Assembly (NCBI RefSeq): GCF_022669155.1
Contig: NZ_JALBVB010000024.1
Coordinates: 46,503-82,535, forward strand
Reading direction: 5' to 3'
Length of the DNA stretch: 36,033 nt
Source: Kineococcus sp. TRM81007
GTDB taxonomy: Bacteria > Actinomycetota > Actinomycetes > Actinomycetales > Kineococcaceae
Of this stretch, positions 18,556-23,801 are shown piece after piece (within the stretch, counting starts at the first letter, position 1; each line of letters starts with the position of its first letter). The notes beneath the pieces are model-generated. The model was not told the DNA's origin and did not search any database. It was given only the letters and a program-made list of their open reading frames with translations. Position numbers and translations under genes: made by a program.

Positions 18556-18963
18556 TCAGCCCAGGGTGGCGAGCAGGTCCTGGCAGGCCTTCTCGCACGC
18601 CCGGCACGCCTCGGCGCACACGCGGCAGTGCTCGTGCATGGACGCGTGCTGCCCGCACTCGTCGCCGCACGCCTTGCAGGCGGCCGCGCACGCCTGCAGC
18701 ACGGCGCGGGTGACGTTCGCGTCGTAGCCGGTGTGCCGCGAGAGCACCCGGCCGGTGGTGTCGCACACGTCCGCGCAGTCGGTGTTGGTGCGGATGCACT
18801 TGGTGAGTTCGGCGACCGAGTCCTCGCTGAGGCACGCGTCCGCGCACGCGGTGCACGCCTGCGCGCAGCGGAAGCACTCCTCGATGCAGGCGATGAGCTT
18901 CTCGCGGTCCACGCCGCCGAGGTCCTTCGGGTAGGTGCTGACCATGTCGCTGACGGTGCTCAT
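18556..18963 (-). CDS. Cysteine-rich four-helix copper-storage-type protein
   Basis: This 135-residue protein holds 18 cysteines in Cys-x2-Cys and Cys-x3-Cys steps along helical segments. They fall at residues 26-44, 56-67, 92-103 and 113-127 (for example CIEECFRCAQACTACADAC). This is the pattern of Csp/DUF326 four-helix bundles, whose cysteines line the core and bind many Cu(I) ions. There is no signal peptide, so it resembles the cytosolic Csp3 type. The start is ATG 18963, with GAGAGGAG about 7 nt upstream. No copper ATPase, CsoR or CopZ gene lies nearby. An inverted repeat in the upstream gap (19045-19066) may be regulatory. Confidence 0.92.
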   Translation of the reverse strand: MSTVSDMVSTYPKDLGGVDREKLIACIEECFRCAQACTACADACLSEDSVAELTKCIRTNTDCADVCDTTGRVLSRHTGYDANVTRAVLQACAAACKACGDECGQHASMHEHCRVCAEACRACEKACQDLLATLG

Positions 18964-19044
18964 GTCGTGCTCCTCTCCGCAGGGGACGGCGCCGGTGCGC
19001 CCCGGTGGCCACCTCGGTGCAGCGCCGCTCCCACCACCGGGGGA

Positions 19045-19113: not shown

Positions 19114-20061
19114 GTGGTGCCGCTCCTGCCGCCGTCCGTGACCGGCCTGCCCGCCCGGGCCCGCCGCACCTTCCGGGAACGCGTCTCCGGCGACCCGACG
19201 GGCGCACCGGGGTGGGTGCACGACATCGCCCTCGTGGGGGAGGGGCCCGGCTGGTTCGAGCCCGGCGGGGTGGTGTGGCGGGTCCACGGCGACCTGTCCA
19301 CCCTGGTCGGCGGGGTCGTGGCGCTGCTCGGGCAGGGCGCGCACCCGCTGGCGATGGCCGGGGTGCAGCGGCACTCCGGTTACCGGCAGGACCCGTGGGC
19401 GCGGCTGGCCGGCACCGCCCGCTGGCTCGTGGTCTCCACGTTCGGTTCCGCGCAGCTGGCCGAGCGGGAGGCGGCGCGGGTGCGCGCGATGCACGAGCGG
19501 GTCCGCGGCACCGACGACGCGGGGCGCGCCTACTCCGCCTCCGACCCCGGCCTGCTGCGCTGGGTGCACCTCGTCTTCACCGACGCCTTCCTCGCCGCCC
19601 AGCGCGAGGTCGGCACGGACCGGCTGGCGCCGCGGTTCGGCCGGCGCTGGCCGGACGCGTACGTGCGCGAGTGGGCCCGCACCGCCCGCGCGCTGGGGGC
19701 CGCGGACCTGCCCGGCAGCGCGGCGGAGCTGGCGCAGGCGCTGGAGGCGTTCGCGCCCGCGCTGGAACCGGTGCCGGCGCACCTGCTGCGGTTCCTCGCC
19801 GCCCCACCCGGCCTGGGCCGCGCGGAGGGCGCCTTCTACGGCGGCCTGGCGGGTGCGGGGGCGCTGCTGCTGTCCCCGGTGGTGGCGCCCCTGGCGGGGG
19901 TGCCCGGCCGGGCGGTGCGGGGACCGCGCGAGCGGGCGCGCCTGGCGGCCACCGGTGCCCAGCTGCGCGCGGCGCGGGCCCTGCTCGGCCCGTACAGCCC
20001 CTCCGAGGAGGCGGCCCGCCACCGCCTCGGGCTGGGGCCCGCGCCCTCCTGGCTGCGCTGA
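19114..20061 (+). CDS. MpaB-like (DUF2236) oxygenase
   Basis: This is a 315-residue protein of the DUF2236/oxygenase-MpaB family. The family includes latex-clearing protein and fungal MpaB, which use a b-type haem. Characteristic blocks are GVVWRVHGDLSTLVGGVVALLGQGAHPLAMAGV (about residues 52-84), the DPWARLAGTARWLVVSTFGS segment, and DPGLLRWVHLVFTDAFLAA (about 147-165). The putative haem-ligand histidines are His80 and His155 by position; this is an inference. Start: GTG 19114 has GAGG 8 nt upstream, and GTG 19117 directly follows it. The gene stands alone; its substrate is unknown. Confidence 0.88.
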   Translation: MVPLLPPSVTGLPARARRTFRERVSGDPTGAPGWVHDIALVGEGPGWFEPGGVVWRVHGDLSTLVGGVVALLGQGAHPLAMAGVQRHSGYRQDPWARLAGTARWLVVSTFGSAQLAEREAARVRAMHERVRGTDDAGRAYSASDPGLLRWVHLVFTDAFLAAQREVGTDRLAPRFGRRWPDAYVREWARTARALGAADLPGSAAELAQALEAFAPALEPVPAHLLRFLAAPPGLGRAEGAFYGGLAGAGALLLSPVVAPLAGVPGRAVRGPRERARLAATGAQLRAARALLGPYSPSEEAARHRLGLGPAPSWLR

Positions 20062-20092
20062 GCTGCCGGGGTCTCCGCCCGAGACGGGACCG

Positions 20093-20107
20093 ACCACCTC
20101 CGGTGGT
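20093..20107. terminator. Weak hairpin after the MpaB-like gene
   Basis: ACCACC-TCC-GGTGGT is a perfect but short 6-bp stem with a 3-nt loop, 31 bp after the stop. Terminator function is uncertain. Confidence 0.35.
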
Positions 20108-20214
20108 GGCGGCGCCCCACCGCCGCGATGCGCGTCCTTCGAAGGTCGGGGAGGGGTGACGTCGGAGCGCGGGCCGCCCGGGCAGGCTCGTCGCCGGTGG
20201 CCCGGCGCAGGACG

Positions 20215-20276
20215 GAACCCCGGGTTCGGTGAAGTCCGTCTCGGAAGGCTGTCGATCCGGGCTGGTGGCGTTCGTG
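20215..20276 (+). promoter_or_regulatory. ECF42-type promoter with upstream palindrome
   Basis: TGTCGA (20250-20255), then 17 bp, then CGTG (20273-20276). ECF42-group promoters are described as TGTCGA at -35 and CGAC or CGTC at -10, so this site matches all six -35 bases and three of four -10 bases. The predicted start near 20283 leaves a leader of about 43 nt before the YCII gene. A perfect 13-bp palindrome, GAACCC-C-GGGTTC (20215-20227), lies 22 bp above the -35. Confidence 0.6.
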
Positions 20277-20325
20277 TGGAGGATGAGCGCCGGCACCGGA
20301 CCGGCCCAGGACACCAGGAGGAACC

Positions 20326-20676
20326 GTGACCCAGTACCTGCTCAGCGTGATCCAGCCCGTGGGTGAGCGGCCCGCTCCCGAGGCCGTGGCGCGCATCGGT
20401 GCGGACGTGGCCGCCTTCCACGAGGAGCTGCGCGCGGCCGGGGCGTGGGTCTTCGCCGGTGGCCTGCACGGGCCGGAGTCGGCCACGGTGGTGCGCGTCG
20501 GCGGTGACGGGGGGCAGGAGGTGCTGTTGACCGACGGGCCGTGGATCGAGGCCGAGGAGCACCTGGGCGGGGTGTGCGTCGTCGAGGCCGCGGACCTGGA
20601 CGCGGCGCTGGAGCGGGGCCGCGAGGCGGCCAGGGCCACGACCTTGCCCATCGAGGTGCGGCCCTTCCTCGGCTGA
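20326..20676 (+). CDS. YCII-related (DGPF) domain protein
   Basis: This is a 116-residue YCII/DGPF-type protein with a ferredoxin-like fold. The DGPF motif appears as [14 protein letters not shown] at residues about 66-79. The family opening is [10 protein letters not shown], and [19 protein letters not shown] lies near 39-57. The biochemical role of such proteins is unknown. They are typically encoded directly upstream of ECF42-group sigma factors, and that is the arrangement here. The GTG start at 20326 has a good AGGAGG site. The upstream promoter looks ECF42-dependent, yet the neighbouring sigma gene is broken, so this gene may be silent or driven by another ECF42 copy. Confidence 0.92.
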
Positions 20677-20681
20677 GCCCC

Positions 20682-21614
20682 GTGCCTGCTCCCGTGCCCG
20701 CGGCGCAGCTGAGCGTCGGCGTGGACGACGTCGAGGGCGTCTTCCGCGCTGAGCACGGCCGCGCGCTCTCCGTCCTGATCCGCTTCCTCGGCGACATCGA
20801 CGCCGCCGAGGAAGCGGTGCAGGACGCCTTCACCACCGCCGTGCAGCGTTGGCCGCCCCCAGCCCGGCGGGGTGGATCATCACCACCGCCCGCCACCGGG
20901 CGGTGGACCGCCACCGGCGCAGGTCGCCTTGACGCTGCGCCTGCTGGGGGCTTGAGCACCCCGCAGATCGCCCGGGCGTTCCTGGTGCCGGAGGCGACGA
21001 TGGCCCAACGGCTGGTCCGGGCGAAGAGGAAGATCCGCGACGCCGGCATCCCCTACCGGGTGCCGCACGAGGCGGACCTGCCGGCACGGCTGCGCGGGGT
21101 GCTGGCGGTGCTCTACCTCATCTACACCGAAGGGCACTCGGCGACCTCGGGGGAGGACCTGGTGCGCGCCGACCTGTGCGCCGAGGCGGTGCGCCTGACG
21201 CGGTCGCTGGCCGCGCTGATGCCCGATGAGCCCGAGGTCCTCGGGTTGCTGGGTCTGCTGCTGCTCTCGGAATCGCGCCGCCGTGCACGCCGACGCGCGG
21301 GCGCCGCAGGACACCGACTGGCGGCAGGTGCTCGCGTTGTACGACCACCTGCTCGCCCTGCTCCCCACCCCCGTCGTCGTCCTCAACCGGGCCGTCGCCC
21401 TCGCCGAGGTCGAAGGACCAGCCGGGGCGCTGGCCGTCGTCGAGGGTCTCGACCTGCCCGGGTACCCCCGCTGCACGCCGTCCGCGCCGACCTGCTGCGC
21501 CGACTGGGACAGCGGGAGCAGGCCCTCCACGCCTACGACGAGGCCATCAGGACGGCCGGCAACGACGCCCAGCGCGCTCACCCCACCCGGCGACGCACCG
21601 AGCTCGAGACGTGA
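20682..21614 (+). pseudogene. Decayed ECF42-type RNA polymerase sigma factor gene
   Basis: The remnant is of an ECF sigma factor with the long C-terminal extension of the SigJ/ECF42 kind. Region 2 ([31 protein letters not shown]) is in one frame. [20 protein letters not shown] continues in a second, and [11 protein letters not shown] in a third. Region 4 and after ([28 protein letters not shown] to [16 protein letters not shown]) returns to the first. The TPR-like extension ([19 protein letters not shown]) is in the third frame again, and the end ([13 protein letters not shown]) is in the first. There are at least five lesions: a short indel near 20853, a deletion of roughly 40 codons near 20917, a 1-bp loss in a G run near 20947, a deletion of roughly 50 codons near 21275, and a shift near 21465. 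No intact sigma factor can be made. Confidence 0.88.
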
Positions 21615-21940: not shown

Positions 21941-22263
21941 TCGGCGATCAGCGCCCACCGCGGTGGGGATCCGGTCTTCGAGGCCGCCTGGACTGCGCTG
22001 CAGCAGGGCCCGGACACCAGCGACGACGATGCGTTCCTCGCGACCGCCCCCGTCTCCGACCTCGTCCAGCGCCTGCGGGCCCTGGCCGCGCCGGTGCTCG
22101 TCGTCGCGGGAGAGCAGGACGCGTTGACCGGCCTCGCACCCGTCGAGGCCCTCGCGCGGCTCTTCCCGGCCGGACACCTGGCTCTTCTCGGCGACTGCGG
22201 CCACTACCCCCCGGGTGGAACAGCCCACCGCCTCCCGCCGGGCCGGCGACCCGTTCCCGCAGT
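21941..22263 (+). pseudogene. Alpha/beta-hydrolase C-terminal remnant
   Basis: Only the last third of an alpha/beta hydrolase is legible. SDLVQRLRALAAPVLVVAGEQDAL carries the acid residue of the triad (Asp in GEQDAL). ARLFPAGHLALLGDCGHYPP carries the catalytic His. A one-base excess in a G run at about 22213 then shifts the frame: the expected continuation, VEQPTASRRAG, lies in another frame. The nucleophile elbow (GxSxG) and the N-terminal two thirds are missing. It lies directly after the decayed sigma gene, in the same orientation, and may once have belonged to the same operon. Confidence 0.7.
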
Positions 22264-23285: not shown

Positions 23286-23801
23286 GTGCCCACCACCCTG
23301 CCCTGCCTCTGGTTCGACGGCGACGGCCTGGCCGCCGCGGAACGCTACGTCTCCCTCTTCCCGAACTCGTCGATCACCTCGGTGGCCCCGGGACCGGACG
23401 GTTCCGCGCTCCTGGTCGAGTTCTCCCTCGACGGGCGCGCGTACCTGGCCCTGAACGGCGGGCCGCAGTACGCGCTCAGCCCGGCGTTCTCCGTCCAGGT
23501 GCTGTGCGACGACCAGGCCGAGGTCGACCGCTACTGGGACGCGCTGCTGGAGGGCGGTGAGGAGAGCAGGTGCGGCTGGCTGACCGACCGGTGGGGCGTC
23601 TCGTGGCAGATCGTGCCGCGGCGGCTGCTGGAGCTGCGGGCCGACCCCGACCCGGGACGCGCCGAGCGCGCGGTGCGGGCGATGCTCGGCATGCGCCGCC
23701 TGGTGGTCGCCGACCTGGAGGCCGCGGCGGACGCCGCTCCGGCCCGGCCCTCCACCGTGCCGAGCGGTGCAGGGGTCAGCGGTTCGCCGCGAGCGCGCTG
23801 A
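23286..23801 (+). CDS. VOC/PhnB-like protein
   Basis: This is a 171-residue protein of the PhnB/3-demethylubiquinone-methyltransferase-like branch of the vicinal oxygen chelate superfamily. LPCLWFDGDGLAAAERYVSLFPNSSI opens the first beta-alpha-beta unit. SLDGRAYLALNGGPQYALSPAFSVQV follows, and VDRYWDALLEGGEESRCGWLTDRWGVSWQIVPRRL is the typical second half (about residues 79-113). The exact reaction is unknown. The GTG start at 23286 has GAGGAG 5 nt upstream. The open frame extends upstream into the minisatellite as poly-Arg, which is rejected. Its 3' end overlaps the end of the convergent HAAS-type gene by 26 bp. Confidence 0.9.
   Translation: MPTTLPCLWFDGDGLAAAERYVSLFPNSSITSVAPGPDGSALLVEFSLDGRAYLALNGGPQYALSPAFSVQVLCDDQAEVDRYWDALLEGGEESRCGWLTDRWGVSWQIVPRRLLELRADPDPGRAERAVRAMLGMRRLVVADLEAAADAAPARPSTVPSGAGVSGSPRAR

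Follow-up and report, generated by a model that had tools for sequence, protein, structure and literature searches.

A well-kept ECF42-type promoter, probably orphaned, upstream of a YCII gene whose sigma gene is broken in Kineococcus sp. TRM81007

Does a promoter that has kept its sequence still have a sigma factor to read it? This question is raised by a YCII/DGPF-type gene of Kineococcus sp. TRM81007, which lies downstream of an ECF42-type promoter and directly ahead of a broken ECF42 sigma gene. The locus was analysed in a stretch of 36,033 nucleotides (the window; C23:46503-82535) of a 4.2 Mb, 60-contig draft genome with an estimated completeness of 100. The initial annotation had proposed that the promoter was either orphaned or read by an ECF42 paralogue, which would make the YCII gene a trans target. 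The evidence favours the former: this is quite probably the promoter of a two-gene ECF42 YCII-sigma operon that has recently lost its sigma gene by deletion and now has no known reader.

The promoter occupies positions 20250-20276 of the + strand, as delineated from the sequence, from orthologous loci and from genome motif scans. A -35 box, TGTCGA (20250-20255), is followed after an N17 spacer by a -10 box, CGTG (20273-20276), as the initial annotation had described; the extended consensus is TGTCGATCC-N10-CGTTCGTG, and the letters in the window are TGTCGATCCGGGCTGGTGGCGTTCGTG. For comparison, genome contigs were scanned for YCII relatives, and the best 80 of 519 confirmed loci were analysed. 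Nine of the 80 were excluded prior to counting: five that lack a sigma gene in the locus and whose genome has no orthologous sigma (L155, L166, L174, L178 and L196), one in which the middle of the sigma gene is deleted (L160), two that showed a tblastn frameshift (L133 and L185) and a near-duplicate (L188). TGTCGA-N17-CGT[GAT] was found in all 71 remaining loci, in which sigma is present and not visibly broken; the search pattern fixed TGTC and CGT, so that the invariance of these bases is by construction and the result is that no locus failed. The distance from promoter to YCII start is 76 nt in the window, and 59-103 nt (median 75) in the 71 loci. Scored with a matrix built from these loci, a set that includes Kineococcus xinjiangensis and leaves out the window, the site reaches 33.2 bits (range of the 71 loci, 30.8 to 51.7), compared to -15.6 bits for the second-best match on either strand of the 36 kb. 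In K. xinjiangensis the -35 box, the -10 box and their spacing are identical to those of the window and the leader is conserved, while the region upstream is unalignable.

Within its own genome, TGTCGA-N15-TTCGTG has a single occurrence, with one extra match whose spacer is one base shorter. Across 394 genomes of the class, TGTCGATCC-N10-CGTTCGTR gave 27 matches in 25 genomes, and a reversed control pattern gave none. The matrix score, the single right-spaced genome site and the 27 matches against an empty control confirm that the promoter is more than a chance match. The looser form TGTCGAT-N16to18-CGTG is matched 13 times across the genome, and the bare 10 bases singled out in the initial annotation are therefore insufficient on their own. 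These looser matches speak for a chance origin of the motif, an explanation to which we give practically no credence, as place, spacing and extended consensus are identical in the orthologous loci and the reversed control found nothing. A scan of 19990-20400 for a sigma70-type promoter or a terminator pattern found neither.

The -35 box and the N17 spacing are those of ECF42 promoters; the -10 box is CGTG, not the CGAC or CGTC that the initial annotation gave for the group (CGTC also appears in the portion of PMC6180224 drawn on here). Among the 71 loci the -10 is CGTG in 60, CGTA in nine and CGTT in two. The possibility that CGTG is a decayed CGTC was ruled out, since all 71 orthologous loci carry CGT[GAT] and CGTG or CGTA is usual in their own sigma clade. 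The initial description of the site as close to the reported ECF42 promoter thus holds for the type of promoter; the -10 does not approximate CGAC or CGTC, being instead the usual one of its sigma subclade.

A total of 68 sigma proteins, 59 from relatives and nine from the YCII-locus scan, were each labelled by the -10 of the preceding motif; 12 had no usable motif and were left unlabelled. A clade of 18 sigmas with 96% local support contains eight CGTG, seven CGTA and three unlabelled members. Beyond it are 24 CGTC, 15 CGAC, one CGTT, nine unlabelled and a lone CGTG, the last of these (L095) being a TGTCGT match with N18 spacing located 616 nt upstream. Placed on the sigma tree, the labels require 12 changes compared to a shuffled mean of 26.8; they were assigned by pattern, a few from far upstream (974 nt in L081), and individual labels may be wrong. 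The -10 type and the sigma clade thus appear to go together, CGTG and CGTA in one supported clade and mostly CGTC and CGAC in the others. One of four aligned-core residues that separate the CGTG/CGTA clade is P71 (17 of 18 members, a count that ignores kinship), and it sits in the sigma2 stretch that has been lost from the window's sigma. That stretch reads the -10 in ECF sigmas. The K. xinjiangensis genome holds both types: TGTCGATCC..CGTTCGTG and TGTCGATCC..CGTTCGTC precede two different ECF42 pairs. The second pair (L088, L262) lies behind TGTCGATCCGGGGCTGCGGCGTTCGTC at G011:C14:114504-114530, a site that departs from the window type in its spacer and in the final base of its -10. As a lead, the last -10 base may separate ECF42 subclades.

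The gene behind the promoter (20326-20676, + strand; 116 aa) was identified as an open reading frame with a match to PF03795 YCII of 38.1 bits (cut-off, 24). It starts with GTG at 20326, ends with TGA at 20674-20676 and is preceded by the RBS AGGAGGA (20316-20322, +). From spacing only, transcription is expected to start near 20283. The closest YCII orthologue is that of K. xinjiangensis (82%; tree support 100/96); no orthologue of such likeness was seen in the ten genomes of the same genus, where the best YCII reaches 43%. At 51 conserved columns the window's YCII shows two changes and that of K. xinjiangensis one, and among 70 orthologues whose sigma is unbroken, nine have two or more such changes. 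The leader between the -10 and the start codon (20277-20325, +), defined from its sequence and from related leaders, contains an inverted repeat, GCCGG/CCGGC (20289-20293 with 20301-20305, +), which forms a weak stem in the window. An inverted repeat of this kind lies between promoter and RBS across the window's lineage, in the leaders of L125, L126, L129, L134 and others. In 15 leaders, which had been picked for showing an inverted repeat, seven cells had both sides of the stem changed compared to a shuffled mean of 3.3 (3 of 500 shuffles as high); there was no excess in stem pairs with changes on both sides (three; 109 of 500 shuffles as high) or in further pair types (four; 498 of 500). The window's leader folds no better than its shuffles. 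A leader inverted repeat with some compensating changes is offered as a lead only.

A 13-bp palindrome just above the promoter, GAACCCCGGGTTC (20215-20227, strandless), had also been pointed out. It exists as described and carries no weight: palindromes as good occur in 22% of the window's 100-bp pieces, and one within 60 bp above the -35 box is found in 5 of 76 orthologous loci. Being neither conserved nor unusual in frequency, it was ruled out as an operator and is not judged part of the system.

Immediately after YCII, as in ECF42 operons where a YCII-domain gene lies directly upstream of sigma, comes the remnant of the sigma gene (20677-21614, +), recognised by Pfam and by comparison with K. 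xinjiangensis. That it is wrecked, as first noted, was confirmed, and several deletions are responsible. The remnant retains the front of sigma2, the sigma4 helix-turn-helix, the front of DUF6596 and the C-terminal TPR part; residues 65-135 and 256-321 of the K. xinjiangensis sigma have no counterpart in the original frame. In Pfam, DUF6596 scores 82 bits, over its cut-off, sigma4 and TPR fall below theirs and sigma2 is not listed, whereas in the intact orthologue sigma2, sigma4 and DUF6596 are all over cut-off. Comparison with K. xinjiangensis shows that 12+1, 139, 1, 158 and 1 nt have been deleted from the remnant, which also carries one compensating 1-nt pair and small indels at its start; at the 139-nt deletion, two CCGGCGC repeats have been brought together. 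The two indel clusters total 153 and 159 nt, both multiples of three, so that an uninterrupted reading frame spans 20541-21614 and ends at the native sigma stop. We estimate that restoration of the frame in both clusters would arise by chance in about one of nine cases. Counted by codon position in the old frame, the out-of-frame blocks mismatch K. xinjiangensis at 8/99, 12/99 and 29/97 sites; this pile-up at third positions indicates that the divergence largely accumulated while the old constraint was in force. Private changes at 118 conserved columns number three in the remnant and one in K. xinjiangensis. The loss of sigma looks recent, as substitutions still track the old reading frame; "recent" carries no date, the substitution pattern mixing periods before and after the loss.

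Two other explanations of the broken gene were weighed. The deletions may be errors of assembly or sequencing and the organism's own sigma gene unbroken, as could be argued from the 60-contig draft, from several 1-nt indels in G+C-rich runs and from the fact that every indel cluster totals a multiple of three. The 139-nt and 158-nt deletions, the former between short repeats, are unlike the usual type of error, however, and both the adjoining YCII gene and the upstream MPAB gene are uninterrupted, making this explanation very unlikely. Even less probable, in our opinion, is that the frame-restored gene encodes a truncated but still active sigma-like protein, one that might, for instance, bind the -35 box via the kept sigma4. 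The open frame up to the native stop, the net losses of 153 and 159 nt and the recognisable sigma4 and DUF6596 parts would suit such a protein; the out-of-frame blocks track the old frame and not the new one, the stretch that reads the -10 is lost, and a codon-position look for selection on the new frame revealed none.

The orphaned promoter remains the best reading when the candidate readers in the genome are considered. A genome search with PF20239 (DUF6596, the ECF42 C-terminal domain) had the remnant itself as its sole match, and a 13-sequence ECF42 profile returned the remnant and four generic ECF matches of at most 38.8 bits. The YCII gene as the trans target of an ECF42 paralogue is therefore not supported. 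The scan for intact ECF42 sigmas and matching promoters thus yielded no intact sigma and one exact right-spaced site. With two mismatches allowed, the motif was found at seven more places compared to one for the reversed control; by a crude filter, none of the seven had a start codon, a Shine-Dalgarno-like stretch and 60 codons within ~180 nt. No TGTCG-N18-CGW match was seen in the stretch examined at the second YCII gene of the genome (C23:15478, L001). A sigma gene at G000:C43:192519 (L235) that looks ECF41-like has TGTCAC-N17-CGTC ~800 nt upstream, at position 608 of L235. One possible scenario is that another sigma of the genome, such as this one, cross-reads the promoter and keeps YCII expressed; we consider it improbable, if less so than the errors discussed above. 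There are 19 Sigma70_r2 matches in the genome, YCII is mostly conserved, and TGTCAC-N17-CGTC resembles TGTCGA-N17-CGTG. On the other hand, TGTCAC and CGTC differ from the window in both boxes, the last -10 base tracks the sigma clade, the next-best match to the ECF42 profile has just 38.8 bits, and the ECF41 label was given by eye, the SnoaL extension of L235 not being found by Pfam.

Can a promoter without a reader be so well kept? Damaged motifs were seen in three sigma-less loci (L196, 18.4 bits; L178, 13.7; L174, -40.6), while L155, also sigma-less, has one -35 change and still scores 39.5 bits, higher than the window. The motif is perfect in sigma-less L166 (50.4 bits) and in L160 (45.7 bits), where the middle of sigma is deleted. 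L178 stands apart from L155 and L196 on the tree, which points to at least two separate losses of sigma, and probably more. Of the 27 exact matches, 18 precede both YCII and sigma, one belongs to the window, two (L285 and L297) have YCII with no sigma match in the stretch examined, three (L286, L292 and L293) have the operon deleted or rearranged, and three (L295, L298 and L302) have no YCII. In L292 the deleted segment begins within the first YCII codons and ends midway through sigma, leaving the promoter followed by the YCII start joined to the sigma middle; in L293 (reverse strand) sigma continues in frame from the front part of YCII, as a fusion. These three wrecked loci were found via the motif, and so show that an intact promoter can stand before a broken operon but give no measure of how frequent this is. 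Since wrecked YCII-sigma operons elsewhere keep the promoter too, its intactness is no proof that some reader is hidden in the genome; several other losses carry changes in the -35. In two Streptomyces sigma orthologues (L133, near 5172; L185, near 5230) the frame changes at about residue 300-302 of the C-terminal extension, owing to either sequencing error or recurrent loss.

Taken together, the locus would be a two-gene YCII-sigma operon of the ECF42 subclade that reads TGTCGA-N17-CGTG/A. The ancestral sigma presumably drove its own operon, judging from the way promoter type follows sigma clade. Deletions, including one between CCGGCGC repeats, would then have taken the sigma2 stretch expected to read the -10, together with the linker and a portion of the C-terminal extension, and YCII would since have been silent or expressed at a low level via read-through or another sigma. 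With no other ECF42 sigma found in the genome, the promoter would be orphaned, and it is most likely intact through recency of the loss and not through maintenance. Counting against this are the largely kept YCII, as if still useful, the promoters that have not decayed at other losses (perfect in L166, 39.5 bits in L155), the frame restored in both indel clusters and the 19 sigma70-region-2 matches in the genome. The mechanism is ordinary and the case clean: it offers a natural view of a regulatory promoter soon after the death of its regulator, with relatives at other stages of loss, and it cautions against taking a well-kept promoter as a sign that the regulator is still alive.

ECF42 sigmas with a YCII neighbour include Sven_0747, Sven_7131 and Sven_4377 of Streptomyces venezuelae and ECF-10 of Pseudomonas putida, according to the portion of PMC8999054 drawn on here. 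As in the window's locus, YCII there adjoins a sigma whose C-terminal extension, ~200 residues long, bears TPRs; among the remnant and its orthologues, matches to sigma2, sigma4, DUF6596 and TPR are seen, those of the remnant to sigma4 and TPR being below cut-off. In the window the sigma is broken and the -10 is CGTG. For RpoE10 (ECF42) of Sinorhizobium meliloti, the portion of PMC6180224 cited above gives TGTCGG-N17-CGTC at the mapped starts of two targets, reports trans targets and names glyoxalase-like genes among the targets of RpoE10; the spacing is the same as in the window and the boxes are near-identical, whereas the -10 ends in C, the -35 in GG, and the sigma is intact. The closest orthologous pair, in K. 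xinjiangensis (G011:C3, NZ_PTJD01000003.1), also has an intact sigma, of 421 aa, unlike the window; its genome encodes two further DUF6596 sigmas, one of them behind a promoter with CGTTCGTC replacing CGTTCGTG.

The -10 variant is the more general lead. In other genomes the subclade motif precedes a RibD_C gene (L295, 1501-2156, and L298, 1501-2180; two genomes) and a DUF998 membrane-protein gene (L302, 1501-2250); the genomes of L298 (G315) and L302 (G024) each also carry a motif-bearing YCII-sigma pair (L303 and L279, respectively). The RibD_C and DUF998 genes may be candidate trans targets of the sigma subclade in those genomes; no such target was seen in the window's genome. A broader proposal combines these observations: an ECF42 subclade with a -10 code of its own (CGTTCGT + purine), insulated by one base from CGTC/CGAC paralogues, would have a small trans regulon in some genomes (RibD_C-type, DUF998), and its operons would break repeatedly while the promoter persists, so that perfect orphan promoters would be recent fossils of lost circuits. 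We advance it tentatively, as a joint claim that may well fail in some part. The changed -10 expectation for the subclade bears on genome-wide promoter prediction and on the use of ECF42 sigmas as orthogonal switches.

Several features of the neighbourhood were also recorded. Just downstream of the sigma remnant, at ~21990-22215, lies what by eye is an alpha/beta-hydrolase-like remnant, with no Pfam match. A PhnB/VOC-type gene follows at 23298-23615 (PF06983, 123.5 bits), with no promoter motif noted there; it is mentioned beside the glyoxalase-like RpoE10 targets that the cited portion of PMC6180224 describes in S. meliloti. Upstream of YCII are a gene for a cysteine-rich DUF326 protein (18556-18966, -) and an MPAB/rubber-oxygenase-type gene (19114-20061, +). 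Within the 1.5-kb flanks of the loci, purC adjoins the MPAB gene in the window's own genome only, and the MPAB gene has a 72% paralogue at C39:29725.
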